Below are positions 4,966 through 20,976 of a DNA stretch of 20,976 nt, in pieces. The notes below the pieces were generated by a model. The model ran no database searches. It was not told the DNA's origin and was given only the letters and a program-made list of their open reading frames with translations. The translations under genes and the position numbers were made by a program. This stretch comes from a virus. The number at the start of each line of letters is the position of its first letter. Position 1 is the first letter of the stretch. The stretch covers positions 1-20,976 of the IMG/VR virus record IMGVR_UViG_3300011115_000854; one strand, given 5' to 3'.

Positions 4966-4968
4966 GTA

Positions 4969-5562: not shown

Positions 5563-5567
5563 AAATT

Positions 5568-5582: not shown

Positions 5583-5587
5583 GATAC

Positions 5588-6129: not shown

Positions 6130-6148
6130 AATTTCTTCGTCTGCAGTA

Positions 6149-6177: not shown

Positions 6178-6266
6178 ATATTCTTTTAAATAGTTTTTTA
6201 AAGTTTCTTTAGAGATTGTTCTAGAGTATATTATAAGAACTGTTCAAATCTTTGTCAAGTAAAATA

Positions 6267-6274
6267 TCTAAATA
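6267..6274 (+). promoter_or_regulatory. Late promoter for 6280-6789
   Basis: TCTAAATA (one mismatch to the T4 octamer), ending five bases before the ATG at 6280. No ribosome site fits between, so a leaderless mRNA is predicted. Confidence 0.6.
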
Positions 6275-6279
6275 ATTCT

Positions 6280-6789
6280 ATGAGCAACAAAAGACACGAT
6301 AGAGAACTTTTTGCCAATGCCCTGAAGCAAGTTCAGCTAAACGAATCAAAAATTGAACTGAATAGTAAGGGTGATATCGTCTTTAACAATAAACAACCCA
6401 TCAATGAACTTCTTGGTTCTGTGATTGCTGGTGGTTTACTTTTGGGTTTGGGTGCTCTAAAGGGTCGCCAAATTTATATGGCATCTCAGGCAGCACAAAA
6501 GAAAGCTGCTGCTGAGGCTGACGAAAAAGCTTTAAACAAACAAAATCTTTTATCTAGTATTGCGGAGCGCGAAGCTGCGGCACAACATAGAACTGATGCA
6601 TTAAATCAACAAAGAAAAGAAGCAGCTAAAAACCGAAGAGCGGATAGACGTGCACGAGGAAGTAATAGAAAACAAGCTACCACGATAGCTCAGAATGCAA
6701 ATAATGCAGCATTAGATGCTGCCAGAATTAAAGCTGCAGCCGTATTAGCAGCAGCTGGTCATACACCTCCACCTCCACCAACACCGTAA
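6280..6789 (+). CDS. Predicted head protein with hydrophobic segment and Ala-rich helix
   Basis: A 169-residue protein. Two potential prohead-protease sites occur: LNE at residues 20-22 and INE at 41-43. Directly after the second comes a hydrophobic, Gly-rich segment (residues 44-62, LLGSVIAGGLLLGLGAL) long enough to cross or insert in a membrane. A long Ala/Lys/Arg/Gln helix of coiled-coil character follows to about residue 160, and the tail ends in PPPPPTP. The order cleavage site, hydrophobic patch, charged helix is shared with the next gene (6797-8344). A head protein ejected with the DNA, or one that contacts the inner membrane during head assembly, would fit; this is inference. The start is fixed by the late promoter five bases upstream. 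Confidence 0.65.
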   Translation: MSNKRHDRELFANALKQVQLNESKIELNSKGDIVFNNKQPINELLGSVIAGGLLLGLGALKGRQIYMASQAAQKKAAAEADEKALNKQNLLSSIAEREAAAQHRTDALNQQRKEAAKNRRADRRARGSNRKQATTIAQNANNAALDAARIKAAAVLAAAGHTPPPPPTP

Positions 6790-6796
6790 GAGTTGT

Positions 6797-8344
6797 ATGA
6801 ATAATAATAATAAAAATTTACAAGAAGCTGATATTTCTGCATTTGGTGCAATGTTACCCGTAGCAGCTGTTGGTCTTGCTGCTGGTGGATATTTGGCAGC
6901 AAAGGGTATTGGAAGTTTTAGAAACTTTCTTGCCAATAGAGCAAAAAAGAAATCTGATGCTGAAGCTGCAGATGTTCCAGCTCCAACTCCAGTTCCTGCT
7001 CCGGCTCCTGTTCCTGTTGATAACAGTGCAAAACTTGCACGTATCGCTGCAAGAAAAAAAGCCAGACGTGAAGAAGAAGCTAGTTATGAATCTCGCAAAG
7101 ATGCAAAAGTTCAGGGTATTATTTCTACCTATGGTGAGGTCGGTAGAGCTGTTGGTGCAAGTAAAACTGCAGCAGCAGCTGCTGCGGCTGCACGTCAAGA
7201 TGCATTAGATCAGGCAGCTAACGAGCGACAAGTCAATAAAAATGAGGCTGAGACATTAAGAGCACAAGCACGTGTTCTTCAACAAAAAAATGAACGAAGT
7301 GCACTTTTGATACGGGCACTCGCAACACGTAATAAAAATAAAAATAATGATGCAGTATCAACTGCAAATATCGATAATATAAAAGCAAAAACTGATTTAA
7401 CACGAAGTAAGATACCATCCCCGCCACCCACTCCATCCGTGCCTACTGTTTCACCTAAAACTCCAAGTGAACCAAGTCCATTAGCTACTGCTGGAAAACT
7501 TATGGCTGATGTGTTTAGAGGCAAAGAAACAGGTGAAACATCATCTAAATCATCACCTGACGTAACACCTGGTTTACCTGATAAAGTTAAAGATACAGAA
7601 ACAGCAACAGAAAAAAAAGTTCCCGAAGTACCAGTTAAAGCTATACGTAAATCAAAAACACCTTCAGCAGCAGGTAAAGGTGTAGGTAAAGGTGTAACAG
7701 CAGCAGCAGAAGATTCAACAGTATCAACAACATCAACAGGTGCAGGTAGAGCTAAACGTAAAACACCAACACCTACAGCAACACCTACATCAACACCTAC
7801 ATCAACACCTACAGCAACACCATCAACAACATCAACAGGTGCAGGTAAAGGTAAAGGTAAAGGTAAAGGTGTAAGTAAAGGTGAAGTTAAAGGTAAAGGT
7901 AAAGGTGCAAGTAAAGGTGAAGTTAAAGGTTCTACAACAACACTAACTATAGCGACAAAAAGAAGTGCAAATAGAAGAGCAGCAGCAGCAGCAAAAGCAG
8001 CAACCCCGGTTCGTAAAGTTGATGAAGTTGATGAAGATGATAAACGTGAAGCTGCGGCAGCTAAAAGAGCAGCAGGAATGGCTGCTGCACAAGCAGTTAG
8101 AGATGAACAAACAAGACAACGTAATGCTTCTAATATATCTTTAGTAAAACCTGCTACACCAAGATCCACGAATACATCTAAAACACAAGAACCAGATGGT
8201 CTTACGCCAGAACAATTAAAAAAAGCGCAGGACATCAAAAGAGAAAATTTTGAAAAAAAAGAAAAAGACAATTCTTCGGTTAATGAGTTAACAGATTCTA
8301 CTCACTATTATGTTACTTCAATCTTAAAAAATCTTTTAGGTTGA
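6797..8344 (+). CDS. Long low-complexity predicted head protein
   Basis: A 515-residue protein, eight bases after 6280-6789 and presumably co-transcribed. It opens MNNNNKNLQE-ADIS, with LQE at 8-10 as a predicted prohead-protease site, then a hydrophobic Gly/Ala segment (residues 17-38). Residues 60-75 are a Pro-Ala-Val linker, 85-190 a long Ala/Arg/Gln helix, and 205-400 low complexity: Pro/Thr/Ser repeats of the TPTSTPT type and Lys-Gly repeats of the GKGKGKG and SKGEVKG type. The C-terminal 120 residues are again helical and end SILKNLLG. The composition is basic overall. Nothing enzymatic is seen. The opposite strand is also open for a long stretch (7279-8271), a side effect of the repeats. 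A DNA-associated internal or ejected protein is the best guess. Confidence 0.7.
   Translation: MNNNNKNLQEADISAFGAMLPVAAVGLAAGGYLAAKGIGSFRNFLANRAKKKSDAEAADVPAPTPVPAPAPVPVDNSAKLARIAARKKARREEEASYESRKDAKVQGIISTYGEVGRAVGASKTAAAAAAAARQDALDQAANERQVNKNEAETLRAQARVLQQKNERSALLIRALATRNKNKNNDAVSTANIDNIKAKTDLTRSKIPSPPPTPSVPTVSPKTPSEPSPLATAGKLMADVFRGKETGETSSKSSPDVTPGLPDKVKDTETATEKKVPEVPVKAIRKSKTPSAAGKGVGKGVTAAAEDSTVSTTSTGAGRAKRKTPTPTATPTSTPTSTPTATPSTTSTGAGKGKGKGKGVSKGEVKGKGKGASKGEVKGSTTTLTIATKRSANRRAAAAAKAATPVRKVDEVDEDDKREAAAAKRAAGMAAAQAVRDEQTRQRNASNISLVKPATPRSTNTSKTQEPDGLTPEQLKKAQDIKRENFEKKEKDNSSVNELTDSTHYYVTSILKNLLG
7660..7930 (+). repeat. In-frame microsatellite-like repeats (GGTAAA, ACACCTACA)
   Basis: Within the gene at 6797-8344, hexamer GGTAAA-type repeats (about 7673-7695 and 7840-7930) and ACACCTACA-type nonamers (about 7764-7815) encode GKGKG and TPTSTPT tracts. 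The unit GGTGAAGTTAAAGGT occurs twice, at about 7878 and 7917. Such tracts are prone to slippage and length change. Confidence 0.7.
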
Positions 8345-8347
8345 TTG

Positions 8348-8355
8348 TATAAATA
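8348..8355 (+). promoter_or_regulatory. T4-type late promoter (consensus)
   Basis: Exact TATAAATA, five bases before the GTG start at 8361. This promoter decides the GTG as start: an ATG two bases earlier is followed at once by a stop. Confidence 0.7.
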
Positions 8356-8360
8356 CATAT

Positions 8361-8606
8361 GTGAAAGTAATAGAAAAAGTTTCTTCTAGAGAGACTATCT
8401 TTAATTTAATGCCGTCATCAGATAATTTTGATTATCAGGCATTTGTAACTAAAATTAAAAATTTAAAAAAGCAACCATTTCATGATGTGTATATTTTTAC
8501 ACCAAATGAAATGTGTTTTGTTATTTTAAAAGAATTAAAAAATAAAAATATTGATATCAAACAAATGGAAATCAAACATGGGTTGGCTAAATTTGAGGTA
8601 GCATAA
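8361..8606 (+). CDS. Hypothetical late protein, GTG start
   Basis: An 81-residue protein of unknown function. It starts at GTG, five bases after a perfect late promoter octamer, so it is predicted to be translated from a leaderless mRNA with a GTG initiator, which is uncommon. The sequence has a mixed alpha/beta look (DYQAFVTKIKNLKK, then DVYIFTPNEMCFVILKEL). No known motif is apparent. Its stop overlaps the next start (TAATG at 8604-8608), so the two genes form a coupled pair, and both are probably late structural or assembly proteins. Confidence 0.7.
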   Translation: MKVIEKVSSRETIFNLMPSSDNFDYQAFVTKIKNLKKQPFHDVYIFTPNEMCFVILKELKNKNIDIKQMEIKHGLAKFEVA

Positions 8607-9271
8607 TGGCTGACGATTATGAAATTGTAGAAAACGGTACAGATGACATGGATGTCGTGAGAGATCCACGTGCAAGTGTTCGTGATGCAATGGCTAGTAT
8701 CGATGCTCAACGCAATGCATTAAAAGCCCAAAAAGAATTTGGTTTTGATGAAAGTTCATTTGGTTATAATGTTTACGAAAATAAAGAAATTGAAACTTAC
8801 GGTTTAGCAGAACAACGTAAAGCTAATTTAAAAGATGTTATGGATAATGATATGTTGTATTCTTCATATTTTTCTAAAAGATATGGAAGTTTATCTGTTT
8901 ATCTAGAAATGGACAATCAACTTTATCCACCGGGATTTAATCCATTAAGCGATAAATATGTTTCTGTAAAAATTGCTAAAGAAGGCAAACTTTATATTGC
9001 AGACTTTATAAATCCAAATCAAATTATTGAAGAACTATTAGATGGTATTGTTTCTTTCATGGTCATGAAAGTAAATGGTCAAGTTGCTCTTATAATGGGA
9101 TCACTCAAAGAAGGTCTTGTTAACGGCGAAGAACATGTAAGACAAGCAGGTTTTAGTCCATTAGGGGATGGTCGTATTTTATTGTGGAGCACAGTCAAAC
9201 AAAAGTGGAGTTCTTTCTACCCAGACAATCTTCTTTCGATGACACGAGATGACACAGATGATTTAGAATAA
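8606..9271 (+). CDS. Hypothetical acidic late protein
   Basis: A 221-residue protein I cannot assign. The N terminus is acidic (MADDYEIVENGTDDMD), followed by a helical stretch (residues 25-50) and a mixed region containing YPPGFNPLSDKYVSVKI (residues 111-127) and an apparent beta-rich part with KVNGQVALIMGSL. The C terminus is acidic (TRDDTDDLE). There is no prohead-protease signature near its start, which sets it apart from the internal-protein genes upstream. It is coupled to 8361-8606 by a one-base stop/start overlap and shares that gene's late promoter, so a virion or assembly role is likely. The stop codon lies inside the late promoter of the next gene. Confidence 0.7.
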   Translation: MADDYEIVENGTDDMDVVRDPRASVRDAMASIDAQRNALKAQKEFGFDESSFGYNVYENKEIETYGLAEQRKANLKDVMDNDMLYSSYFSKRYGSLSVYLEMDNQLYPPGFNPLSDKYVSVKIAKEGKLYIADFINPNQIIEELLDGIVSFMVMKVNGQVALIMGSLKEGLVNGEEHVRQAGFSPLGDGRILLWSTVKQKWSSFYPDNLLSMTRDDTDDLE

Positions 9272-9274
9272 ATA
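9267..9274 (+). promoter_or_regulatory. Late promoter for 9281-9463
   Basis: AATAAATA (one mismatch to the late octamer) ends six bases before the ATG at 9281. It contains the stop codon of the preceding gene. Confidence 0.5.
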
Positions 9275-9280
9275 TTAGTA

Positions 9281-9463
9281 ATGGAAGACTTTAAAGATTT
9301 AAAAACTGAACGTCATCTAAATGCTCTTCTATTAAGAGAAGCTAAACTTTTAATTAAAAATTATGAAGCTTACTTATTGGATAAAATGACATCCAAAGAT
9401 TTAGCCACAGAAATGCTGAATCTTACACATATAATACAAAGAATTGAAAACAGCGTCAAATAA
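9281..9463 (+). CDS. Small hypothetical late protein
   Basis: A 60-residue, probably all-helical protein (MEDFKDLKTERHLNALLLREAK...) with an amphipathic, Leu/Lys/Glu-rich pattern that could form a coiled coil. No family is recognised. It begins six bases after a late promoter-like octamer and ends three bases before the -35 box of the guaC promoter, so it closes the late block. Confidence 0.6.
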   Translation: MEDFKDLKTERHLNALLLREAKLLIKNYEAYLLDKMTSKDLATEMLNLTHIIQRIENSVK

Positions 9464-9465
9464 TA

Positions 9466-9494
9466 TTGACGTTGGTGTTATAGTGTGGTAAAAT
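9466..9494 (+). promoter_or_regulatory. Sigma70-type promoter for guaC
   Basis: TTGACG (9466-9471), 17-bp spacer, TAAAAT (9489-9494). The ATG follows six bases after the -10 box, so this transcript too would start at or next to the initiation codon. Confidence 0.65.
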
Positions 9495-9500
9495 ATACGC

Positions 9501-10535
9501 ATGATCGTAAATTACGAACCAAAACTTGATTACTCTGATGTTTTGATTGTTCCACAACTTTCTGATGTAAAATCTCGAAATGATGTAAGTTTAGACGTCG
9601 CAACAGAGTTTAAATGTGGTAGATATTGGAAAGGTACGCCAGTTATGGCTGCTAACATGTCTACCATTGGTACACATGCGATGGCACTTGCTCTTTCCAA
9701 TTATAACATGATAACTTGTCTTAAAAAAGGTTTTGATTATTATGATTCATTTGTAAAACAATATCCCGATAAAGAACATAATGTTGCACTTAGTCTAGGA
9801 CTAGATGCACAAAGTAAATTATGGTTAGATACACCATCCATAAAAGATCCAACGTTTATTTGCTTAGATGTAGCAAATGGTTATATGAAAGAGTTTCATT
9901 CTTTTGTTAGAAAGGTAAGAGAGAAATGTCCAACTTCGATAATTATAGCAGGAAATGTAGTGACACCAGAGGGAGTGAAAGCATTAGCAGAAGCAGGTGC
10001 CAATCTTGTAAAAGTGGGAATCGGAGCCGGGTCAATGTGCTTGACGCGGAGAATCGCGGGAGTGGGTTACCCACAATTGTCCGCAGTAATGGAGTGTGCA
10101 GAAACCGCAGCAGCATTAGATATTGGGATCGTTGCTGATGGTGGAATAGTACACTCTGGAGATATTGCAAAATCTTTTGTTGCTGGTGCTGCATTTGTTA
10201 TGATTGGTGGGATGTTTGCCGGACATGACGAGTGTGGCGGTGAAATTCGTCATAAAGAGCATGGACAGCTTACGATGTTGCATTACGGCATGAGCAGCAA
10301 AACTGCAAATGACAAATACAATGGTGGGCTGTCCACATATCGTGCGTCAGAGGGACGCACAGTGGAGGTTCCTTACCGTGGACCTGTATACAATACGATA
10401 CAAGAAATTCTTGGTGGTTTGCGCTCGGCTTGTTCTTACGTTGGTGCTTTTGATTTGCCTTCTTTATACACCAATGGTACAATGGTGAAAGTGAATCGTA
10501 CTATCAACAATATTTTTGAAGAGAATGAAATATGA
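9501..10535 (+). CDS. guaC: GMP reductase
   Basis: A 344-residue protein of the IMP dehydrogenase/GMP reductase family. It lacks the CBS domains of typical IMP dehydrogenase and has nearly the length of E. coli GuaC (347). Diagnostic features are AANMSTIGT (residues 50-58), CLDVANGY (121-128), AGNVVT (150-155), the active-site loop GIGAGSMCLTR with catalytic Cys180, VADGGI (211-216), MIGGMFAGHDE (234-244), YGMSS (262-266) and the GuaC-like EGRTVEVPYRGPV (284-296). The enzyme converts GMP to IMP with NADPH and so rebalances purine pools, here presumably toward adenine nucleotides for AT-rich phage DNA; that purpose is inference. It has its own host-type promoter, so expression is probably early. 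The middle of the gene (about 9990-10120) is noticeably GC-richer than its ends. The last codons overlap the next gene (ATGA). Confidence 0.93.
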   Translation: MIVNYEPKLDYSDVLIVPQLSDVKSRNDVSLDVATEFKCGRYWKGTPVMAANMSTIGTHAMALALSNYNMITCLKKGFDYYDSFVKQYPDKEHNVALSLGLDAQSKLWLDTPSIKDPTFICLDVANGYMKEFHSFVRKVREKCPTSIIIAGNVVTPEGVKALAEAGANLVKVGIGAGSMCLTRRIAGVGYPQLSAVMECAETAAALDIGIVADGGIVHSGDIAKSFVAGAAFVMIGGMFAGHDECGGEIRHKEHGQLTMLHYGMSSKTANDKYNGGLSTYRASEGRTVEVPYRGPVYNTIQEILGGLRSACSYVGAFDLPSLYTNGTMVKVNRTINNIFEENEI

Positions 10536-11029
10536 ATATTTTTGCTTTAGATAAAGATCCTCTTATTGCTGCTCAAATGATGTGTGATAAACATGTTGTA
10601 AAAATGATTCTTGAAGGTTGTCAAATGCTTTCAACAGTTCACTCTTTAGATACTGTACAAGATAATAAAATAAAATTGTACAAACCATGTTTTCATAATC
10701 ATCCATGTACAATTTGGGCAAGAGCATCCAAATCAAATTATTATTGGCTAGCAAATCACACATTTGAATTGACTAATGAATACAGTAGTCGTTATTATGG
10801 TAAAATCCATAAATCTACTGATATGGCATATTGGTTTACTCAAAACGCACCAAGCAATCTTCCAAATACTATTTGTACTGACTTTGCACAAGCAATGCCA
10901 GAACAATATAAGAACGTTGATGGAGTAGCCGCATACCGTGCGTATTATCTTGGAGAGAAAGCTAAATTTGCTAAGTGGAAGTTAGGAAATGAACCTATGT
11001 GGTTTACCGTCGCTTCCCTTTCTGTTTAG
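10532..11029 (+). CDS. Conserved phage protein, MNIFxLDxDP family
   Basis: A 165-residue protein. The start (MNIFALDKDPLIAAQ, then CDKHVVKMILEGCQMLST), the central HNHPCTIWARASKSNYYWL and the later EYSSRYYGKIH resemble a family common in T4-like cyanophages and other marine phages, known to me as hypothetical. The many conserved His, Asp, Cys and Trp residues suggest an enzyme, perhaps acting on nucleic acid, but no activity is established as far as I know. It overlaps guaC by four bases, so both are translated from the same mRNA and may serve nucleotide or DNA metabolism. Its 3' end overlaps the converging gene 11004-11669 by 26 bases. Confidence 0.8.
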   Translation: MNIFALDKDPLIAAQMMCDKHVVKMILEGCQMLSTVHSLDTVQDNKIKLYKPCFHNHPCTIWARASKSNYYWLANHTFELTNEYSSRYYGKIHKSTDMAYWFTQNAPSNLPNTICTDFAQAMPEQYKNVDGVAAYRAYYLGEKAKFAKWKLGNEPMWFTVASLSV

Positions 11030-11669
11030 GTGGCTCGTTTAATAATGGTGGAATAATTGGACTATTGGGGTCTTGAGTTGGTGTAACTTTTGGAGTTACT
11101 ACAGGTTCTACTTTTGGTGGTTCTGTTGGTTTAATAGGAGTTTGTGCAACAGGCTTGGGTTCTGCCACTGGTGTACATACTCCATTTTCACAATTTAAAA
11201 ATCCACTTTTAAATTTTTTAACATTACCAGCCCAATTTTGATTTAATTTAGTTGGGTCATTTGCAACATTTGGTGGTGCCCATCGGGCTCCCATAAAGTC
11301 TTCAAATGATAATTTTTTATCAGATGCTTCATATCTTTTTCTATTAGAAATAATAGAAGCTGCAGCCCAACCAGCCTGACGATCTAAAGACGTTTCAGGA
11401 GTATCTCCTGGTTGTCCCATGGCTTTTGGATCTAATACACCAAATTCTCGACCCTGTCTCCCATTTTCTGCTCGTCGTATTGCACCTAACATTGCTAGAC
11501 CATCATAATCTTCTTTGTTAATACCATTTCGTTCTGCTGCACCCATCATTATTGCATATTCTTTTCCAAATTCTTTTTCTAATTTACTATGAAAATTTTG
11601 ATGATATGTGTTAACTGGTTGTTTTACTTCGCCAGTATCTTCAAGCAAAAATTGTTTAAATCTTAGCAT
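11004..11669 (-). CDS. Lysozyme-like protein with capsid-targeting sequence
   Basis: A 221-residue protein. It begins MLRFKQFLLE-DT, the same capsid-targeting signature as the genes at 2879, 3994 and 4420, with LLE (8-10) as cleavage site. Residues 55-153 resemble a lysozyme or transglycosylase-like domain: AIRRAENGRQGREFGVL (63-79, candidate catalytic Glu68), then FMGARWAP (125-132), NDPTKLNQNW (137-146) and NV. The assignment is by motif pattern only. A Cys pair (160, 165) precedes a Pro/Thr/Lys-rich tail ending in KQKGKRR. If both parts are real, this is a wall-degrading enzyme packed inside the head and delivered with the DNA. It lies alone on the minus strand; no late octamer is seen upstream, and AAAGG nine bases before the ATG may be its ribosome site. 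Confidence 0.7.
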   Translation of the reverse strand: MLRFKQFLLEDTGEVKQPVNTYHQNFHSKLEKEFGKEYAIMMGAAERNGINKEDYDGLAMLGAIRRAENGRQGREFGVLDPKAMGQPGDTPETSLDRQAGWAAASIISNRKRYEASDKKLSFEDFMGARWAPPNVANDPTKLNQNWAGNVKKFKSGFLNCENGVCTPVAEPKPVAQTPIKPTEPPKVEPVVTPKVTPTQDPNSPIIPPLLNEPPKQKGKRR

Positions 11670-11679
11670 ATATTAACCT

Positions 11680-11707
11680 TTGACTTTGCTGCAGTTCATG
11701 GTATAAT
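11680..11707 (+). promoter_or_regulatory. Sigma70-type promoter for 11727-12996
   Basis: TTGACT (11680-11685), 16-bp spacer, perfect TATAAT (11702-11707). A normal leader with AAAGGAAA before the ATG at 11727 follows. Confidence 0.75.
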
Positions 11708-11726
11708 ATGACAAAGGAAACATACA

Positions 11727-12026
11727 ATGAACGTTCAACTATTTAGACTAAACTCAGGCGAAGAAATTTTGACTCGATACGAAGAAACCGAAACAGGCTA
11801 TGTCTTTAAAGACCCAGCAGTTTTAATTCCAATGGAACAAGGGCAAATTGGTATGATGCCTTGGATGATGTATACTGATATTTCTAACGGTGTTACTATT
11901 CCAAAATCATTTATTGTGTTTCATGTTAGCCCAGTAGCTGCATTGAAGAATCAATATGATGCTAACCTCAATAAAGGGATCGTTGCTCCTTCGAAGTCAT
12001 CGAAGTTAAAGTTGACGATGGATTAA
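11727..12026 (+). CDS. Small Sm-like phage protein
   Basis: A 99-residue protein. VQLFRLNSGEEILTRYEETETGYVFKDPAVLIPM resembles the start of small conserved cyanophage proteins whose beta-strand pattern recalls Sm/Hfq-like folds (residues 1-45); the SGEEI turn and the later TIPKSFIVFHV strand fit. Sm-like proteins bind RNA as rings, but that activity has not been shown for this phage family as far as I know. It has a good ribosome site (AAAGGAAA) and a sigma70-type promoter, which points to early or middle expression, and heads a run with the deaminase-like and SPOUT genes. With an RNA methyltransferase and a tRNA downstream, an RNA-related role is attractive but unproven. Confidence 0.7.
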   Translation: MNVQLFRLNSGEEILTRYEETETGYVFKDPAVLIPMEQGQIGMMPWMMYTDISNGVTIPKSFIVFHVSPVAALKNQYDANLNKGIVAPSKSSKLKLTMD

Positions 12027-12027
12027 A

Positions 12028-12408
12028 TTGGATATTGACACGATAACTAAACTTTATGTTCCTATTGCCAAACCTATATCAATGGCAATGGAAAGACAAA
12101 AGAAACATATTTCTATTATTTTATATAAAAAAGAAATTGTTGCTATTGGTCAGAATGAGTATAAGACTCACCCACAAAGTGTAAAACTTGGTTATAGGTA
12201 TCCTGAGATGCATTCTGAGTTAGATGCATTCAGAAAAATCCCAAGAAGTTATCGTGATAAAAAATTAATCCTTCTTAATTTTAGATTTAATCGGTTTGGT
12301 GTTTATAGAAATGCTAAACCATGCCCAATATGTCACAAATGGTGTGCTGATATTTTTCATGACATCTATTACACAAGTGATGACGGAATTCTTAAATTAG
12401 AGGATTAA
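12028..12408 (+). CDS. Zinc-dependent deaminase-fold protein, TTG start
   Basis: A 126-residue protein with the two hallmark motifs of the cytidine/deoxycytidylate/tRNA-adenosine deaminase superfamily: HSE at residues 62-64 (zinc ligand and proton-shuttling Glu) and PCPIC at 98-102 (two further zinc ligands). A fourth Cys is at 106. The strand ISIILYKKEIVAIGQNEYKTHP fits the first beta strands of the fold. The domain is minimal and the motif spacing is compact, so the substrate (nucleotide, or a base in RNA) cannot be told. The frame begins with TTG one base after the upstream stop; the alternative ATG at 12082 would remove the first 18 residues but keep the fold. It is in line with the Sm-like and methyltransferase genes. 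Confidence 0.75.
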   Translation: MDIDTITKLYVPIAKPISMAMERQKKHISIILYKKEIVAIGQNEYKTHPQSVKLGYRYPEMHSELDAFRKIPRSYRDKKLILLNFRFNRFGVYRNAKPCPICHKWCADIFHDIYYTSDDGILKLED

Positions 12409-12411
12409 CCA

Positions 12412-12996
12412 ATGGAAACACGTAACATAATTGATCATTATCATTATTGGGAACATGATGCGATATTATCCGATTTGGACGATAAGCGTTTTAATTATTC
12501 AGTTGTCTGTTGTAATATTGGCAATGATTTTAATATTGCTACCGTTATACGAAACGCTAATGCATTTTTGGCGAAAGAAGTAATTATCTATGGCAACAAA
12601 AAATATGATAGGCGCGGCACTGTTGGCACTCATCATTATACCAATTTTCGTCATGTACGAACTATTGATGATTTTGGATCGTTTATTGAATCCAAATCAT
12701 GTGACACCGGAGGACAGATCCGACTCATAGGAATTGATAATGTTCCTAATGCGAAGGATGTGAGTACATATGAGTTTGACCCTAACATTCATTATATAAT
12801 GATTTTTGGACAAGAACAAATTGGTGTACCAGCAGAAATTTTAAATATCTGTAATGATATTTTGTATATTCCACAGTACGGTTCTGTGCGAAGTATTAAT
12901 GTTGGTACTGCCAGTGGAATTTTGATGAATTCTTATTGTTCCAAAATCACACACTCTGGGCCTCGGAGTATAAAAATTTGGGGCTTTTTTGCTTGA
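12412..12996 (+). CDS. SPOUT (TrmH/SpoU-type) RNA 2'-O-methyltransferase
   Basis: A 194-residue protein with all three SpoU motifs: NDFNIATVIRNANAFLAKEV (residues 38-57, conserved Arg47), IFGQEQIGVP (131-140) and IPQYGSVRSINVGTASGI (153-170), which form the knotted SAM-binding site. Family members methylate a ribose 2'-OH in tRNA or rRNA using SAM. It lacks any extra substrate-binding domain, so the target is open; the tRNA-Gln that begins inside its stop region, and the deaminase-like gene four bases upstream, suggest tRNA. The ATG is preceded by GAGG. The last 14 residues extend beyond the usual end of the fold and run through a hairpin and T-run. The stop codon lies inside the tRNA acceptor arm. 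Confidence 0.88.
   Translation: METRNIIDHYHYWEHDAILSDLDDKRFNYSVVCCNIGNDFNIATVIRNANAFLAKEVIIYGNKKYDRRGTVGTHHYTNFRHVRTIDDFGSFIESKSCDTGGQIRLIGIDNVPNAKDVSTYEFDPNIHYIMIFGQEQIGVPAEILNICNDILYIPQYGSVRSINVGTASGILMNSYCSKITHSGPRSIKIWGFFA
12960..12990 (+). terminator. Possible weak terminator inside the methyltransferase 3' end
   Basis: GCCTC and GGGGC can pair (5 bp, one G-T) around 15 bases, followed by six T residues. The stem is short and the loop long, so it may be fortuitous. If it works, it would limit read-through into the tRNA. Confidence 0.25.
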
Positions 12997-13060
12997 TGGT
13001 GTAACGGTAGCACCGAACCCTTTGAAGGTTTTTGTTTAGGTTCGAATCCTAATCAAGCAA
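12990..13060 (+). tRNA. tRNA-Gln (anticodon UUG)
   Basis: A complete cloverleaf. Acceptor stem TGCTTGA (12990-12996) pairs with TCAAGCA (13053-13059); D arm 12999-13013; anticodon stem GAACC/GGTTT with loop CTTTGAA, anticodon TTG at 13022-13024; T arm TTAGG-TTCGAAT-CCTAA (13036-13052). It starts with U1, as tRNA-Gln usually does, and the discriminator is A. CCA is not encoded. UUG reads CAA, the Gln codon favoured by the AT-rich genes here. It overlaps the end of the SPOUT gene by seven bases. Confidence 0.92.
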
Positions 13061-13062
13061 TT

Positions 13063-13070
13063 GATAAATA
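13063..13070 (+). promoter_or_regulatory. Late promoter-like octamer after the tRNA
   Basis: GATAAATA (one mismatch to TATAAATA), three bases after the tRNA. Six bases further on is the ATA codon at 13077, the proposed start of the DUF5856-like gene, the same register as at 9267-9281. Confidence 0.45.
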
Positions 13071-13076
13071 TCTGGT

Positions 13077-13436
13077 ATACAAATAATCACACCACTATTA
13101 ACCCTGCAGAATCAATTGAGACTGCTTCACTGGCAAACTAAGTCCTATTCCGAGCATAAAGCCTTGGGACGCGCCTACGAGGCTCTAGACGGCATTGTAG
13201 ACAACTTTGTAGAGACTTACTTCGGTAAATATGGGAACGTTAACGCCAAAGAAACTTTTAAGATTAATATTGAAAATTATTCAGATAAAAATGTTAAAGA
13301 AGTTCTCCAAGATGGTATTCGATATCTTGAAAATATGACAACAAATTTGTCAGAAAATGACACAGAACTACTAAATATCAGAGATGAGATGCTTGCTGTT
13401 CTCCAGCATACAAAGTATCTGCTTCGTCTGACATGA
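13077..13436 (+). CDS. DUF5856-like cyanophage protein, start codon uncertain
   Basis: A helical protein of about 119 residues. LHWQTKSYSEHKALGRAYEALDGIVDNFVETYFGKYG is typical of a conserved family in T4-like marine phages (DUF5856 type, resembling ferritin/Dps-like helical bundles); its function is not established. The obvious start, TTG at 13116, would remove most of the first helix. The frame stays open upstream to 13068 and encodes IQIITPLLTLQNQLR, which fits the first helix of the family (a run ending LQNQLR before HWQT), but it contains no ATG, GTG or TTG. I therefore place the start at ATA 13077, six bases after a late promoter-like octamer; this is a proposal. A base error is the alternative. 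It overlaps the next gene by four bases. Confidence 0.65.
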   Translation: MQIITPLLTLQNQLRLLHWQTKSYSEHKALGRAYEALDGIVDNFVETYFGKYGNVNAKETFKINIENYSDKNVKEVLQDGIRYLENMTTNLSENDTELLNIRDEMLAVLQHTKYLLRLT

Positions 13437-13747
13437 AAATAACAGAACTAACCTACGAAATCCGTTTGTTGGCTCGCAAAGAAATAGATCCTTCTCGTAA
13501 GGATCTATTTTACCAAGTAGCTAGTCTACTTGAATATACAGATGACCTTGTGAAACAATGCGATCTAGCAGTTTGTGATGGACTTAAGTCTGGCACGGGC
13601 CCCATTGATTTGAACGGGGAACAAATATGCCCTGTGGACAAAGAAGTTTTGGGAATGATGGATGATTTCATCACCGAACTTATCCACAAAGGTTATTTTC
13701 CCCAAGAAGATCGATGGGAAGAAATAAGAAAATTAGACGCAGCGTAA
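13433..13747 (+). CDS. Hypothetical helical protein
   Basis: A 104-residue protein of unknown function, mostly helical, moderately acidic, with no motif I recognise. Its ATG overlaps the stop of the DUF5856-like gene (ATGA), so the two are co-translated. Two Cys in the centre (VKQCDLAVCDG) and a third at QICPVDKE are the only notable residues. The C terminus overlaps the converging gene 13733-14329 by 15 bases. Confidence 0.7.
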   Translation: MKITELTYEIRLLARKEIDPSRKDLFYQVASLLEYTDDLVKQCDLAVCDGLKSGTGPIDLNGEQICPVDKEVLGMMDDFITELIHKGYFPQEDRWEEIRKLDAA

Positions 13748-14329
13748 TAAGGCTGTTCTAATATTCTTGGGTAGCGTGCTATGACTCTGGGCCTTAAAAT
13801 TTGAAGGCATGGTTTTTTGCACTGCTTTATTCTTATAAGGGTTCTTTTTAAACATCCAAAATTTGCGTGTCTCTTCCATAATAAAATGGGTATAGATATA
13901 GCAATTTGCTTGCTTGATATACTTCTTTTTGTCAATCGGAAGATCGTACTTGTGTATCAATTTTACAGCAAATTGTTCGCATTCACGTTCCATCTTACGA
14001 ACCCAGTAAAATGCCTTTTTAATAGTTTTAACGGAATATTCTTTTCCACCAAACCAATCAACTACAATAGAACAATGTCTATCGGCTGTATTGTAAATTT
14101 TTGATTTTTGAATCCATTGTAAAAAATGGCAATATTCATGTAAGAGCACATCTAAAAAATTTGGTGCTTTTCGGGCTACAGAAATTGTTATGTTATTGTC
14201 ATCAAAACATCCGGAACAACGACTACCCTCAACATTTATTGCTTTACCGCGCCCTATGACCAATTTTCCATTGTAAAGTTTTAAATGTTTACGTACATGG
14301 GAGACAAACTGACGGTGTTTGTAAGTCAT
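13733..14329 (-). CDS. HExxH zinc metalloprotease-like protein
   Basis: A 198-residue basic protein. VLLHEYCHFLQW at residues 61-72 contains the zinc-protease motif HExxH (64-68), and ERECEQFA (114-121) about 50 residues later can supply a third Glu ligand, as in gluzincin-type peptidases. A Cys pair (38, 41) lies before the motif. The C-terminal 45 residues are very basic. Substrate unknown; a role in processing of host or virion proteins is possible. I start it at 14329: GGAGG precedes this ATG and CATAAATA, a late promoter-like octamer, lies further up at 14353-14360. The frame extends to a TTG at 14413, but that would lie upstream of the promoter. Unlike most late genes here, this one has a normal leader. 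Confidence 0.7.
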   Translation of the reverse strand: MTYKHRQFVSHVRKHLKLYNGKLVIGRGKAINVEGSRCSGCFDDNNITISVARKAPNFLDVLLHEYCHFLQWIQKSKIYNTADRHCSIVVDWFGGKEYSVKTIKKAFYWVRKMERECEQFAVKLIHKYDLPIDKKKYIKQANCYIYTHFIMEETRKFWMFKKNPYKNKAVQKTMPSNFKAQSHSTLPKNIRTALLRCV

Positions 14330-14352
14330 GGCGTAGGAGCCTCCGTTAGAAC

Positions 14353-14360
14353 TATTTATG
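14353..14360 (-). promoter_or_regulatory. Late promoter-like octamer for 13733-14329
   Basis: CATAAATA on the minus strand (one mismatch to TATAAATA). The predicted start near 14347 gives an 18-base leader containing GGAGG, which also folds as GGAG-GC-TCCT. Confidence 0.5.
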
Positions 14361-14406
14361 AATAAAACTACCCCAAAAGACAATATTTTTTTATTAAAAT
14401 AAGGGC

Positions 14407-14435
14407 TTGACAATACCCTTGATTTGTATTATAAT
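14407..14435 (+). promoter_or_regulatory. Perfect consensus sigma70 promoter
   Basis: TTGACA (14407-14412), 17-bp spacer, TATAAT (14430-14435): a full match to the bacterial consensus with ideal spacing. It drives the small gene at 14460. Confidence 0.9.
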
Positions 14436-14459
14436 ATGCAATATAGAAAGGTTACTAAT

Positions 14460-14696
14460 ATGAATGTTACTAATATCAAGCGTCCGACTAAGATTCAGCG
14501 TGTTTGCAACTATATGTCACGGGGAAACACCCTGACTGAGGGCAAGGCACGATCCATGTTCAAGATTCGAAATGTCCGTGCCACGATGAGCGATCTTCGT
14601 GAAGCATTTGACACCTTCGGTCATCGTATGGACGTGGTTCGTGAGACCAAGAAGGGTCGTACCTTCTACCGTCTGCAAAATACGCGTTCCCGCTAA
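14460..14696 (+). CDS. Small winged-helix-like DNA-binding protein
   Basis: A 78-residue basic protein. TKIQRVCNYMSRGNTLTEGKARSMF... (10-35) reads as helix, turn, helix, followed by NVRATMSDLREAF (38-50) as a recognition helix and MDVVRETKKGRTFYRL (57-72) as a two-strand wing. Proteins of this size and pattern occur in T4-like cyanophages and are thought to bind DNA; a regulator is the likely role, by inference. The start is the ATG at 14460, with AGAAAGG upstream; the frame opens further back only inside the promoter. It sits alone between a perfect sigma70 promoter and a strong terminator, so it should be made early and in quantity. Its codons are much richer in G and C at third positions than those of the neighbouring genes. 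Confidence 0.75.
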   Translation: MNVTNIKRPTKIQRVCNYMSRGNTLTEGKARSMFKIRNVRATMSDLREAFDTFGHRMDVVRETKKGRTFYRLQNTRSR

Positions 14697-14723
14697 ACTT
14701 TCAAAAAAGTTTAGCCTTTCAAA

Positions 14724-14752
14724 AACCACTCCAGTAATGGGGTGGTTTTTTA
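14724..14752 (+). terminator. Strong intrinsic terminator
   Basis: AACCACTCC pairs with GGGGTGGTT (9 bp, one G-T) around AGTAAT, followed by TTTTTTATTT. It closes the unit 14407-14696. A second, weaker hairpin (TAAACT/AGTTTA) overlaps the stop codon just upstream. Confidence 0.9.
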
Positions 14753-14761
14753 TTTGGGAGA

Positions 14762-14769
14762 CCTAAATA
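14762..14769 (+). promoter_or_regulatory. Possible late promoter of the giant gene
   Basis: CCTAAATA matches the late octamer at six of eight positions (TAAATA core). The start near 14775 would give a short leader containing AGGTGA eight bases before the ATG at 14791. Confidence 0.4.
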
Positions 14770-14790
14770 GATGTAACAGGTGATTAATTT

Positions 14791-17700
14791 ATGATATCAA
14801 GAAAATGTTGTTGTACGACTTCGAATACGTGCTGTGACCCAATTTTAAAAGACCAATTCGTAACTTTATTTGATACTGAATTAGATAGCGCATGCCCAGT
14901 ATCTGATCAGGATTTAATTGTATTAAAAATTAATCGCCCTGGTGCCCAATCACATCGTAGAGAAATTTCCATAGGAACACCCCCGGTAGGTAATGGGGGA
15001 GGTCCAGGTGGTGGTGTAGGAGGAGGATCGGGGTGCCCATCGTGCTGTAGAACATGTTCTAGAGAAGGTTGTACATGCGGTCCATTGGTTCCAGGTGTTG
15101 GCAATATTAATATAGGTGGAACCCGCAGAACTGATATAGGTAAGCCATGTACAAAATGTTGTTGTATGGTTCCTAATGATTACCCTGGAGGATGTGCAGA
15201 TTCCCCCTCATGTACTGCTGGATTCCAATTTAAAAATAACAACAATACACCACAACCATCAATAAGTAATATTCCTTCGGTTTTTAAAAGTTTTGTAAAT
15301 AAAATTTTAAAAAATCCACCATCATTATTAAAACAATATAATATTCAAACTTTAGATTATTTAAACAGTGTAGAGGTTCAAAACGATAGACTTTTAAAAA
15401 CTACAGAAAAACAAATAAGAACACCTACGACAAAAACTGATTTTAAAAATGAAAGATTTAAATCAACATTAGAATTTTTAAATAGATGTAAAAAATGTTT
15501 GCAGGACAATAATATTGATATTGATTGTGTTGATAATGAGACGAATCTATTATGCCAAGGTAAAAATACTAATATTTGTGAAAATTGTTCTGAAGAATGC
15601 ATTAATTTTTGTGATCCAATTTATGGTGGAACACCACAACAAATAAAAAATAGTGAATTATTATTGAGTAATATTAATTACAAAGATAATATGTTAGCCT
15701 TAGATCCGGAGTTAGATACCACAGAAGTGTATTCTGGGACAAAAGATGTTACAAATTTAGTAAAAAGTCTTGGTGCAGGTGATTATGGTAATGATGTTAC
15801 TTTACCAGATCCAAGTCAAAAACTATGTACTAAATGTTTATTTAGTGGTGGTAACCCAGCAGCACCTCCCATTTATTTTATTTACAGATATTCTTCTTGT
15901 AATTTTATATGGTACCCACCAGAATATGTTTTTAATTACAACAGAACACCAAGTCAATGTCCAGGATATATACATCCAACAGGACCAAGAACATGTGATT
16001 ATTTTTTTGGTAGGATAAATCAAGCAGTTTCTGATGGTGCAGAAAGTGCGTTTGAAACCAGTTGCACATCAAATATATTTGATACCCCCGATAGTGGTTG
16101 TTCCAGAGATTATAATTCTTTTCCTTGTCAATGTACTCAATTTCCACATTTAAGTGGTGGAATTTATGATACTTTACAAAGACGTATTAATATTTCTAAG
16201 AAACAATTTTTTGGTGGATATATTGCAGGAAAAAATCCATTTTTACCAAAAGTAAAAATCTCGGAATTAGGGTGTTGTACTTGTTTTACCACACAAAGTA
16301 CTTATGGTCCTCCGGAGGACTGTGCGGGGTCAGCAGAGCGTTTTAATACAAAAAGAAGTAAATTTTTATCGTATCCAAAAGCAAGTGGTTGGGGTTCCAG
16401 TATACAAGCTATAGGAATTGGTTGCACCGAAGATCGAGGTACCAGCCCACCAGCTTATAATCCAAATTATAATACTAGCTGTTTTAGTCGTGGTATTTCT
16501 CCATATTTAAGTAGAATATCTATTTCGCTTTATACTTTAGCATTTGATATTTTCCATTACGGTTCAGATAATCCAGCCCAACAGGAAACTTTAGGGGCAA
16601 CCTATAGATCTTCTTCTATATTAGAAGATGGTAAAAAGTGGACGTCATTACGTTTTACTAAAATGTACAATAAAAAAGATTCTTTATACAATAAATTAGT
16701 TGGAATTGTATCTTTAGAACACCACTTTGAATCATGGGCTTATCACAGTAAAGCTCCCTTTTCTCCACAACCACCTTTGTTAATGAATCATGGTTTAATT
16801 TTATTATTACCTTATGAAAGAGCGTATGCTGGATTTGTAAAACCTTGTAGTTTTCAATATGAACCAAGAGCTGCAATGCGTTGGCAGATTCAGCGATATA
16901 CTCCACGAACTGTTATGTATGGTTCTTCTGGTGTCCCTATCTTCTTTTCGGATCTTTATGCATTTGAACATTTATCACGTGAAAAAAATATTTTAATTGA
17001 TGGTGAAACATTTAATGGTTCTAAATTTTTAGAACAGTATTATTTGTATTTTTACAATAATATTATCAAACCTTCTATTGTAGGTGAACCTTATGTTGAA
17101 CCAATAGATGTTTCAATGTATGAATATGTAAAGACATGTCTTACTGAAATGATTAGATATAATATTATCAGTATCAAAGACCACGCAAAAGATATTGCTG
17201 ATGAATTAATTGAAATACTAGACCAGATTACTGTTGAAACTATTGAAGGTGAATCTGTTGTAGTATTCCCGAATAATTTTATTAAAACACAAATTGGTGG
17301 ATCTGCTGGTTATTATTATATGATAACTTTTTTAAAGCGTTTAGTTGGTTTTGATATTGGTAATAATCCTATTACGGATTGGGCGTCACTTAAACCATAC
17401 GTAACAGCTAAAGTTATTAAGAGAATGATTAACCCAGATAGTTTGGGCACTTTAGCAAATTATAGAAAAAGTCTTCCGGGCCCAATGTTCTTAGGACCAA
17501 GAAGAGTTAAATTAATACCAACACCACTTTCATCTGGGTTAACAGCATGGGGGTGTGATCCAGAAGAAGGATGTTCTTCGTATAATCCATCTCCACTTGA
17601 TATACAATCAAATGTTAATTTAGTGTATTCTTCTGTTCATACAAATGATCTTGGTACTAATTTTGCTATTACTGTAAACGGTAAAGTTCAAATTACAGGA

Positions 17701-20700
17701 AATAATTCTGTTCCTGTATGTAATACCGATACCGATACAGCTAATTTTACAACATCTCTTGGTTGTGTCCCGTTACATTTAAGTTATGTTCAAGATCTTT
17801 TAGAAAATCCAGCAGATGCTGCTCCTGGAAGTATAGAAAAAATTTCTTGTAAAGGTAAATTTGCTGTCGCCTTGGTAAACTATGGGGCATTTCCTGTAGG
17901 AAATCATCTTGGTAATGAAAATAGCAACGATACAAATAGAAAATTAGATTCTAATTGTGGTGTTCAATGGGTTGCAAGTGGTCCTTCTGATCCAAACTAT
18001 GGTGGTATCTATCGCCAAGATCCAAGTTTTAGTTTTTGGGGAGTTTATCCGAGTTGTCCTGGTTATGGATATGGCGTTAATGATAATACATTTGCTTTAA
18101 AAACATGGGGACCAGATAATAAATATGGTATTTTTTATAATCCCCCAGGTAAATTATATTATTGTCCTTCTTCTAATGATAGTAATGTTGCACCTAACGG
18201 AATATTAAATACATTACCTTTAAAAAATAGATATAGATTTTGGATAGATGCTGCAGCAGGCGCCAAACATTGTGTTGCTATTACTGGTGATGGGTGTTTA
18301 TTTGTAACACCAGAAAGTGATAATACATACAATCAATCATCTTATGGAAAAGCACCAACCCAAGTTTCTGGTAATAGTGATTTAACATATATTGAAAACA
18401 TGCCTGTACCAGGTTATTTTAAAGATATTGACTGGAATGGAAACAGTCTTACAGAATGGAAAGCAAAACATTGCGGTGGTAATTTCCCCCGCATAAAATG
18501 TGATATTAGATGTTATTTGTATTCTATTAATAATTACGATGATTTGAATCCTGATTTTCCTTCTGGAGTTTATTCTGGTACCCCTGGGTATTTTGATATT
18601 ACACCAGAAAGACCTTTTTATACAAATGTTGGTGCCGGACAATATCACAGTATTGCTGTTTCTTCTGATCAGAATTTAAAAGTCTGGGGTAGTTATGTCA
18701 AAGTAGATCAGTCTGGTAATATTCTTGGACCAAATCAACAAGATATAACAGGTAATACTGGAATAAATCCTATACAAGCATTTTCACCAACCAATCTCAT
18801 TAATCCAGATAGATGGACGCTTGGTGGAATAACATTAGGGTGTGTAGGTCAGGATGTTAATAATCCCGATAATTATGTATATACTACCGCAACAAAAGAT
18901 CCAGCTACTATTAAAATATTTCAAGTAGATGGTGGACCTGATTATAGTCTTGCTGTAACGGGGTCAGATACACCAGTTAATGTTATTATTTGGGGACACT
19001 CAGAAATGGTTTCCGCATTAAATAATACTGTAATTTCTGGTTTAACCGGATCTGATACTAAATCTTACAACTATATTGAAAAAATTATAGCTGGTGTAAA
19101 TTCTTTTGGTGTATTGTACCGAAGACAAAATAATGCTCAAAAATTCTTAGATATTTTTACTAGACCTTCGCGTACAGCGAAATCATATGATTTTGGTGTT
19201 GATAAATTGCCATATACCGAATATGATTTTGAAGATGCTGCTCTGAGTTATGGTCATGCAATTGGTATTGTTAATAGTGGATACAGAATTAATACCTGGA
19301 AACAAAGTTCGTTTAATTCATATACAGGACATAATTTATTACAATTTAATAGTACTGGTGATCTTCCGTTATATTTCCAAAGTCAAGCTTTCTTTAGATG
19401 TGTAAAAGGACACTGGGATTTTTCCAAATGGTTATTTGGTAGATCGTGTAAGCAGTTACAGGGCGAAGAACAAGACAATGAAGTAATAAAAGAAGACAAG
19501 TGCAGTATCTACTGGAAAAAAGGTGAAGCAAATTTATGTTTTACAGGTCACCCAAAATATTATTGGATGAAACCCAATGATAGAAGATACCAAAAAGTTA
19601 CTCCATTGCACACAAGAGATCCACAAGAAGATCAAACTGGTTGTGGTCTTCTGCGCGATGAAAATGGTGACGATGGATTACAACCCGCTGATTATGGTAC
19701 AGGAAGCGGAAGTCAAACAAATGGAGATGCAAATCGTCAATTAGGTGAATTGATTGGTGGGTGCTATTCTGGTAGAGGTGATATATGTTGGGTAGGCGAT
19801 GGATCACCCAGTGCTTACCAATACACAAAACAGTCAACTCAATTAGGTACCGGTAATCGTTGTGATTGCGAAGAAGCATGTGGATGTCCACCAGAATCTG
19901 AAACTTATTATAGGTATGATTGTGGTGCACCCAATAGTTTTGAAGGACTGGGTACTATGTGTTTTGGTGATGGTGTTTACGGAAGATCTGGTTTTTCTTC
20001 AAATAAAGATTTTTTTGTTCAATCTCACAAATATTTTGGAAAAACAAAATCACGCGAAGCAGTTGAGGGCGTAGGTGGAGTATGCTGTGGTGTTGTTGAT
20101 ACAAATATAACTTATTTTTATTATGCAAAAAAATGTTTTTATTATGGTTATAATTCTACTACTGGGTTGTATGAAGTAAAAAACGCACCTTTAAAATATA
20201 GATCATATTACTGGGGTGATGGTAGAACAGGTGCAAATCCTGGTGCTACTTCGGCAGTTTATATGAATTATACGATGACTCCAGAAGATTGTATTGTAAA
20301 ATATTATCAAGTAGATTATTATATGCAATACCCAACAGTTTATGTTGGTGGAGCTCGTTTACGACAATTAAAATTAAGTTTTTACACTTCTATTAACCTC
20401 GGTCAAGGGTCACCATGTGATCAGTGTTTTTGTAACGCAAATGATCCATGTTCACCCAATAATCAATGCCCGGATACATGTTCTGGATGCAAAGATGTCA
20501 ATGCTGGTAAAAATTTACTTGGACCGGGTGGATGGATATACAATCCTGGAGCATTATGTAATAATTCTTCAATTGGTGATATAATACCAGTATACAGAGG
20601 AGGTGTTCTTAGTAGTTCAATTGCCTTGTTTGATCAAACTTTATATCTCGAAGCTGGTGCATCAACATATTTGGGACCTTTAGTAAAATTTGGTCCATAT

Positions 20701-20976
20701 ACAGGAAGATTACCCCCAGGGTTTACTGCAACATGTTATACAGGTCCAGCTTGTCCGTGTCCAAACTATGAAGCTAATTGTGCTGGATGTAATTTACAAT
20801 GTAATGCAAATGCAGTTTATGATGTTCTTGAAGAATATGATATCGATGATTTAACAAAATATAATTTAGTTGGAGACAAAATAACGTATACAAACGAACA
20901 AACAGGTAAATTGTTTAGAGTTTATGAAGAATTAAAATCTACCTGGATGCTTACCGGAGCGACATATGATCCCCCA
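14791..20976 (+). CDS. Giant Cys-rich protein with RCC1-like propeller (partial)
   Basis: One frame stays open for 2062 codons and leaves the window without a stop, so the protein exceeds 2062 residues. The ATG has AGGTGA at the right distance. The N terminus is extraordinarily Cys-rich (18 Cys in the first 141 residues, including CCC at 6-8 and 123-125) around a Gly-rich linker (66-81). Residues 950-1505 hold about seven RCC1-like beta-propeller segments: FAITVNGKVQITG (958-970), GKFAVALVNYG (1022-1032), GAKHCVAITGDG (1157-1168), GAGQYHSIAVSSD...VWGS (1281-1301), DYSLAVTGSD...IIWG (1384-1402), NSFGVLYR (1437-1444) and YGHAIGIVNSGYRINTW (1487-1503). More Cys clusters follow at 1691-1711, 1876-1900 and 1981-2003. 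No catalytic motif is seen. A large virion protein, perhaps a receptor-binding or tail appendage, is plausible; the Cys clusters may bind metal or form disulfides. Confidence 0.85.
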   Translation, partial: MISRKCCCTTSNTCCDPILKDQFVTLFDTELDSACPVSDQDLIVLKINRPGAQSHRREISIGTPPVGNGGGPGGGVGGGSGCPSCCRTCSREGCTCGPLVPGVGNINIGGTRRTDIGKPCTKCCCMVPNDYPGGCADSPSCTAGFQFKNNNNTPQPSISNIPSVFKSFVNKILKNPPSLLKQYNIQTLDYLNSVEVQNDRLLKTTEKQIRTPTTKTDFKNERFKSTLEFLNRCKKCLQDNNIDIDCVDNETNLLCQGKNTNICENCSEECINFCDPIYGGTPQQIKNSELLLSNINYKDNMLALDPELDTTEVYSGTKDVTNLVKSLGAGDYGNDVTLPDPSQKLCTKCLFSGGNPAAPPIYFIYRYSSCNFIWYPPEYVFNYNRTPSQCPGYIHPTGPRTCDYFFGRINQAVSDGAESAFETSCTSNIFDTPDSGCSRDYNSFPCQCTQFPHLSGGIYDTLQRRINISKKQFFGGYIAGKNPFLPKVKISELGCCTCFTTQSTYGPPEDCAGSAERFNTKRSKFLSYPKASGWGSSIQAIGIGCTEDRGTSPPAYNPNYNTSCFSRGISPYLSRISISLYTLAFDIFHYGSDNPAQQETLGATYRSSSILEDGKKWTSLRFTKMYNKKDSLYNKLVGIVSLEHHFESWAYHSKAPFSPQPPLLMNHGLILLLPYERAYAGFVKPCSFQYEPRAAMRWQIQRYTPRTVMYGSSGVPIFFSDLYAFEHLSREKNILIDGETFNGSKFLEQYYLYFYNNIIKPSIVGEPYVEPIDVSMYEYVKTCLTEMIRYNIISIKDHAKDIADELIEILDQITVETIEGESVVVFPNNFIKTQIGGSAGYYYMITFLKRLVGFDIGNNPITDWASLKPYVTAKVIKRMINPDSLGTLANYRKSLPGPMFLGPRRVKLIPTPLSSGLTAWGCDPEEGCSSYNPSPLDIQSNVNLVYSSVHTNDLGTNFAITVNGKVQITGNNSVPVCNTDTDTANFTTSLGCVPLHLSYVQDLLENPADAAPGSIEKISCKGKFAVALVNYGAFPVGNHLGNENSNDTNRKLDSNCGVQWVASGPSDPNYGGIYRQDPSFSFWGVYPSCPGYGYGVNDNTFALKTWGPDNKYGIFYNPPGKLYYCPSSNDSNVAPNGILNTLPLKNRYRFWIDAAAGAKHCVAITGDGCLFVTPESDNTYNQSSYGKAPTQVSGNSDLTYIENMPVPGYFKDIDWNGNSLTEWKAKHCGGNFPRIKCDIRCYLYSINNYDDLNPDFPSGVYSGTPGYFDITPERPFYTNVGAGQYHSIAVSSDQNLKVWGSYVKVDQSGNILGPNQQDITGNTGINPIQAFSPTNLINPDRWTLGGITLGCVGQDVNNPDNYVYTTATKDPATIKIFQVDGGPDYSLAVTGSDTPVNVIIWGHSEMVSALNNTVISGLTGSDTKSYNYIEKIIAGVNSFGVLYRRQNNAQKFLDIFTRPSRTAKSYDFGVDKLPYTEYDFEDAALSYGHAIGIVNSGYRINTWKQSSFNSYTGHNLLQFNSTGDLPLYFQSQAFFRCVKGHWDFSKWLFGRSCKQLQGEEQDNEVIKEDKCSIYWKKGEANLCFTGHPKYYWMKPNDRRYQKVTPLHTRDPQEDQTGCGLLRDENGDDGLQPADYGTGSGSQTNGDANRQLGELIGGCYSGRGDICWVGDGSPSAYQYTKQSTQLGTGNRCDCEEACGCPPESETYYRYDCGAPNSFEGLGTMCFGDGVYGRSGFSSNKDFFVQSHKYFGKTKSREAVEGVGGVCCGVVDTNITYFYYAKKCFYYGYNSTTGLYEVKNAPLKYRSYYWGDGRTGANPGATSAVYMNYTMTPEDCIVKYYQVDYYMQYPTVYVGGARLRQLKLSFYTSINLGQGSPCDQCFCNANDPCSPNNQCPDTCSGCKDVNAGKNLLGPGGWIYNPGALCNNSSIGDIIPVYRGGVLSSSIALFDQTLYLEAGASTYLGPLVKFGPYTGRLPPGFTATCYTGPACPCPNYEANCAGCNLQCNANAVYDVLEEYDIDDLTKYNLVGDKITYTNEQTGKLFRVYEELKSTWMLTGATYDPP

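Follow-up and report, generated by a model that had tools for sequence, protein, structure and literature searches.

A giant cysteine-rich protein with a predicted RCC1-type propeller in uncultivated T4-like phages, a candidate late attachment protein

RCC1 domains have been found in phage virions before, both in jumbo phages and in Vequintavirinae. The RCC1/BLIP-II-domain protein gp1 of GAP32, described along with relatives, was detected in virions by mass spectrometry (PMC5259590), and the RCC1 proteins gp237-239 of W70 were found in virions by the same method (PMC11370258). Phage phAPEC6 encodes eleven RCC1-like proteins, for which a DNA-organising role was suggested (PMC7247149). The giant protein described here is like these phage RCC1 virion proteins (GAP32 gp1 and its 121Q homologues, W70 gp237-239, phAPEC6) in that an RCC1 domain comes from a myophage. 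What we did not find described is the union of this domain with about 90 cysteines, an N-terminal CCC module and a conserved region at residues 346-905. A sequence-only reading of the DNA knew of no described phage virion protein that unites an RCC1 propeller with so many cysteines; RCC1 virion proteins were in fact known already, and it is the union with the cysteines that stands.

We analysed a virus record of 20,976 bp, referred to as the window. An ATG at 14791 opens a + strand frame of 2062 codons that is stop-free to 20976. The features of this region are listed below.

14424..14696, + strand: p90, the conserved left neighbour, which marks the boundary of the giant cassette
14722..14749, + strand: intrinsic terminator-like hairpin (RNA fold −20.4 kcal/mol, z −3.6; 12-bp stem, then a T-run)
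14762..14770, + strand: predicted T4-type late promoter CCTAAATAG, core TAAATA, at −29 from the giant ATG
14791..20976, + strand: giant ORF, first 2062 of 2109 codons, with the stop beyond the window end
14791..15000, + strand: N-terminal CCC module (residues 1-70), encoded by a small gene of its own in 10/23 relatives compared
14986..15033, + strand: glycine-rich linker (about residues 66-81), read from the sequence
15487..15612, + strand: Cys cluster C233-C274 (CxxC ... CxxCxxxCxxxC), largely conserved
15826..17505, + strand: conserved domain (residues 346-905), fold unknown, in which the motifs PCxC, GxSPYL, HHFE and KDHxxD are invariant
17530..19350, + strand: predicted seven-bladed RCC1-type propeller (residues 914-1520), from Pfam, PDB profile and fold searches and blade motifs
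19351..20976, + strand: Cys-rich C-terminal region, poorly modelled (residues 1521-2062 here, extended to 2109 by a longer contig)

The earlier claim that the frame stays open through the last base was borne out. IMG/VR contig 3300011114_000805 (57,499 bp; hereafter G001) is 100% identical in DNA to window positions 1538-20976 and closes the frame 47 codons past the window end, which completes a protein of 2109 aa with 90 Cys. A first scan for relatives recovered one full-length protein (2124 aa, 93 Cys) and two partial ones, with pairwise identities of 79-85%. A full-length relative has 76-79% identity and a dN/dS of 0.25-0.32, and the frame is thus coding and not a chance opening. An assembly or reading-frame artefact might be suspected from the frame running off the window end and from a GC break near 2.5-2.7 kb. 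Nevertheless, the identical longer contig, the same frame kept in about 30 contigs and the purifying selection rule out a chance ORF, a frameshift or an assembly artefact, and we give this explanation practically no weight.

One relative (L018:1-6230) has a giant frame that is broken late, probably by an assembly or sequencing error; the closely similar L017 has an intact copy. In the left part of the window (1-2700), GC is 0.50-0.60 and declines near 2.5-2.7 kb to about 0.40; a 233-aa ORF of this part lacks a phage homologue. The left part is common to the window and G001 from 1538 on and is either a real insertion or a shared assembly chimera. The window also encodes a dehydrogenase-family protein (9501-10535; phrog_9582), a SpoU-type RNA methylase (12412-12996) and a tRNA-Gln(ttg) (12989-13061). 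At the contig end of G001 (51269-57489; L012), about eight low-GC ORFs resemble glycosyltransferases or sugar-related genes, on sequence impression only.

Scans that started from gp32 and from alignments of the family found giant relatives (22-85% identity) in about 30 uncultivated T4-like phage contigs. The complete proteins have 1,802-2,389 aa and approximately 3-4.4% Cys. The gene order p90-GIANT-orf184-p97-p93-orf442(-)-orf306(-)-p78-gp32 is kept. In G001, the T4-like genes downstream comprise gp32 (Pfam gp32 2e-50), a gp26-type baseplate hub, a tail-tube protein, gp4 and others, and the giant lies within a few kb of gp32, gp26, the tail-tube gene and gp4. The small, Cys-containing orf184 (L002:14346-14900) followed the giant in every contig compared and had no database match. 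Because gp32, gp4 and gp23 are less than 60% identical to any isolate, we assign the phage to an uncultivated T4-like group. The listed best matches of these three were mostly cyanophages; a cyanophage identity was nonetheless rejected, as no psbA/psbD-type gene was present in 20 incomplete family contigs and gp23 was at most ~54% identical to cyanophages among the matches listed. A tblastn search with three family members and one collagen-type protein found no homologue in 50,697 isolate phage records. The giant was also not found in a scan of GTDB bacterial and archaeal genome contigs, so that no host link was obtained. Judged by sequence comparison, the giant belongs to a previously uncatalogued family, which we did not find in the libraries or papers searched.

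About seven RCC1-like segments had been proposed at residues 950-1505. Across 13 divergent members we found seven conserved blade segments at 945-1520, preceded by an AWG strand at 917-922; this agrees with the proposal and gives a predicted propeller of seven blades at 914-1520. In the window protein, Pfam RCC1_2 scored 23.7 bits (curated cut-off 22; 36.3 and 31.9 bits in relatives) and WD40_RLD had an E of 1.3e-7, the latter model staying below its own curated cut-off in every member whose score was shown. Family-wide at E≤0.01, RCC1_2 was matched in 24/26 and WD40_RLD in 25/26 members, and 25 of the 26 matched some Pfam RCC1 model. Searched against PDB sequences, the family profile matched HERC2 RLD, UVR8 and RCC1.

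The sequence-only reading had proposed a structure prediction with a fold search, and both were run. An AlphaFold model of residues 905-2100 (26-sequence alignment) had a mean pLDDT of 54.5, with the blade strands mostly at ~65-90. With Foldseek against the PDB, all matches listed at E≤1e-3 were RCC1-fold (RCC1/RLD-type) proteins, with target TM up to 0.6 and 8-15% identity; the rmsd was mostly 10-14 Å and the model closes the propeller poorly. The viral fold matches came from uncultured Caudovirales and from giant viruses, and were RCC1 proteins. A likeness to BLIP-II had also been suggested and was not upheld: BLIP-II is an RCC1-superfamily propeller too, but it was absent among the PDB fold matches listed at E≤1e-3. 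We conclude from profiles and model that the predicted RCC1 propeller is real, with its closure and the placement of its inserts tentative at these rmsd values.

RCC1/RLD propellers (RCC1, HERC2 RLD, UVR8, RPGR; PF13540, PF25390) share the blade motif, the seven blades and the profile and fold matches with the giant. However, they span 360-400 residues, whereas the giant propeller has approximately 600 with long inserts between blades and, unlike theirs, sits within a 2,109-residue Cys-rich protein. The BFVD RCC1 proteins A0A6J5KKT8, A0A6J5KT19 and A0A6J5Q1M1 of uncultured Caudovirales were among the best viral fold matches, but are far shorter (477-663 residues) and were matched over ~620 model columns. 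The giant family had no sequence match to phrog_4219 (W70 gp237-239). A PHROGs search returned no PHROG for the window protein; three relatives weakly matched phrog_16766 and one phrog_7220, both annotated as 'regulator of chromosome condensation'. Neither Pfam nor PHROGs revealed a tail-fibre, tailspike, adhesin or chaperone family or domain in the giant. On profiles and model we therefore file the giant as a predicted RCC1-fold protein. We do not class it with the tail fibres, for want of a tail-fibre domain in these searches, nor do we file it under phrog_4219 or BLIP-II. To our knowledge, the activities of RCC1 proper (Ran GEF, chromatin binding) are not expected in a phage.

For residues 346-905, Pfam, PDB and fold searches gave no convincing match. 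The model of residues 1-906 was poor (mean pLDDT 51), and a fold search with this low-confidence model of the N-terminal region gave no match.

Cysteine accounts for 4.3% of the giant (90 residues), compared with 1.05% across the remaining ORFs of its contig. The dense clusters noticed earlier in its N and C parts are evident from the Cys density, which is high at residues 1-600 and 1500-2000 and low at 600-900 and 1300-1500. Compared with distant relatives, Cys is the best-conserved residue type (65%; Trp 60%), and conservation reaches 80% or more at 33 Cys positions. When disulfide pairs were sought by covariation, only C922-C928 was cleanly co-lost (jointly present in 23/27 and jointly absent in 4/27 family members), which is consistent with a pair; other pairs were confounded by clade. 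A literature search on Cys-rich virion proteins of T4-like phages found nothing relevant. Disulfides do not form readily in the bacterial cytoplasm. The many conserved cysteines would stiffen the giant, and we infer that they do so either as post-lysis disulfides or as metal sites.

There are 10 CxxC motifs in the giant versus a mean of 3.8 in shuffled sequences, and a CxxCxxxCxxxC at residues 263-274 is conserved. Together with the high conservation of Cys, this could point to a metal- or iron-binding virion protein, in which CxxC clusters would hold Zn or Fe for uptake mimicry or stability and recognition by the propeller would play no part. We regard such a function as improbable, since the zinc-finger profile match was weak and single (1/23 members, E 0.007) and disulfides are equally possible.

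Two predicted signals precede the giant ATG. The strong terminator-like hairpin probably closes the preceding unit, so that the giant would start a new unit after it. The TAAATA core of the second signal, which we take to match T4-type late promoters, precedes 8/68 ORFs of the contig (P ~0.002). It lies upstream of the tail sheath gp18, portal gp20, scaffold gp22 and major capsid gp23 candidates of the same contig, names that were given by position, length and resemblance, with a tblastn comparison for gp23 only. Among fused giant relatives, the core is at −25 to −34 in 13/13, counts that are not independent as the members are related; in split relatives it stands ahead of the separate CCC gene, at −21 to −25. 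From this motif, we read the expression class of the giant as that of a predicted late gene.

Late promoters also serve non-virion late genes, and RCC1 domains are general interaction modules. The giant might accordingly act within the host cell or at its surface (takeover, lysis, superinfection exclusion) with its propeller as a protein-interaction platform, and it is indeed dispensable across the clade. Yet a 2,100-residue protein with its own late promoter beside structural genes would be a costly design for such a role, and Pfam and profile searches recognised no enzymatic domain. We consider a non-virion function unlikely.

Among close relatives, the giant and orf184 had dN/dS values of 0.22-0.34 versus 0.01-0.09 for p97, orf442, orf306 and gp32 at broadly similar dS. 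Protein change in these two is thus several times faster than in the neighbouring genes. Between L003 and L005, dS was ~0.4 before residue ~1190 and zero after it, where the sequences are identical. This switch indicates a recombination breakpoint inside the giant, in the propeller. Fast evolution and recombination would fit a part that faces variable hosts; the high dN/dS would fit relaxed constraint as well as adaptation.

Where the CCC module is a separate ORF, it encodes 77-134 aa and ends a few to ~25 bases short of the giant ORF. The family tree requires three or more switches between the fused and split states. Separate CCC genes directly upstream of the giant ORF are at the following positions.

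L099:6840-7244, separate CCC gene
L104:1361-1594, separate CCC gene
L109:800-1042, separate CCC gene
L113:2699-3052, separate CCC gene
L120:4767-5009, separate CCC gene

In the sister phages L031, L037 and L051, the giant cassette is cleanly absent and p90 is close to orf442. These phages instead carry, between p126 and p106 and under a predicted late promoter, a Cys-rich gene (Cys 5.6-6.9%) starting MPRKACCC or MPKKACCC.

L037:216-4046, CCC-headed Cys-rich late gene
L051:1259-4957, CCC-headed Cys-rich late gene
L031:4070-5413, CCC-headed Cys-rich late gene

The longer two proteins (L037 and L051; Cys 5.6-6.1%) have GASGCCGASG-type collagen-like repeats and weak collagen-like Pfam matches. They resemble the giant in the MPKKACCC start and the late promoter, but differ in lacking RCC1 and in their locus. 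Profile comparison did not support homology between the giant and the collagen-like CCC proteins past the N-terminus, and the CCC profile matched the L031 protein with an E of 0.03. Since no further similarity between the two kinds of protein was detectable, we treat the shared N-terminus as a resemblance, with homology unproven. Further large, very Cys-rich ORFs (5-8%) occur in more distant T4-like contigs (L084:17330-19369, L090:8022-10805, L064:4404-5882, L080:4360-6198, L089:699-3335); two of them start CCC but are without the late-promoter core.

A late promoter would equally suit an internal or head-associated virion protein whose RCC1 propeller organises DNA or is packaged with it, as proposed for phAPEC6 (PMC7247149). 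We find this placement quite improbable: a core head part would not usually evolve fast and recombine, sister phages that share the structural genes lack the cassette, and a Cys-rich, Gly-rich or collagen-like modularity would fit exposed proteins better.

The explanation that we favour, with some reserve, is that the giant is a late virion-surface attachment protein (a modular adhesin) of an uncultivated T4-like phage clade; its presence in the virion, surface position and receptor binding are all part of what we suppose. A host-recognition or adhesion role had been put forward from the sequence. It is the best-supported hypothesis, given the late promoter, fast evolution, recombination and modular exchange, and its virion location and binding keep the standing of suppositions. 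The detection of GAP32 gp1 and W70 gp237-239 in virions makes a virion location plausible. The propeller itself, the start of a new unit after the terminator, the nearness to gp32, gp26, the tail-tube gene and gp4, and the clean loss or absence of the cassette in sister phages also speak for this explanation. The want of a tail-fibre or adhesin match in Pfam and PHROGs, the poor closure and low confidence of the models, and the poor formation of disulfides in the cytoplasm speak against it. The short Cys-rich CCC module, fused here and a separate subunit in some relatives, would anchor or assemble the giant, and the conserved region at 346-905 would form its body. The seven-bladed propeller with its long variable inserts would present the binding face, and the Cys-rich C-terminal region would complete the distal part. 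As orf184 evolves in step with the giant, it may be an accessory or capping protein. More tentatively, these parts could make up a new kind of attachment apparatus: a giant adhesin densely stapled by cysteines, in which an RCC1 propeller would be the binding head and a separable CCC subunit would serve for docking and could carry one body or another (RCC1-propeller or collagen-like), the cassette being swapped between phages.

RCC1 propellers recur in phage virions, and in the giant family a predicted one belongs to a defined late gene within T4-like phages. The family bears the marks of diversification and of module exchange that a part for host recognition would be expected to show, and has a conserved Cys content that is unusual for phage proteins. 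Its absence from the 50,697 isolate phage records suggests that the giant may point to an uncultivated clade with an undescribed attachment system.
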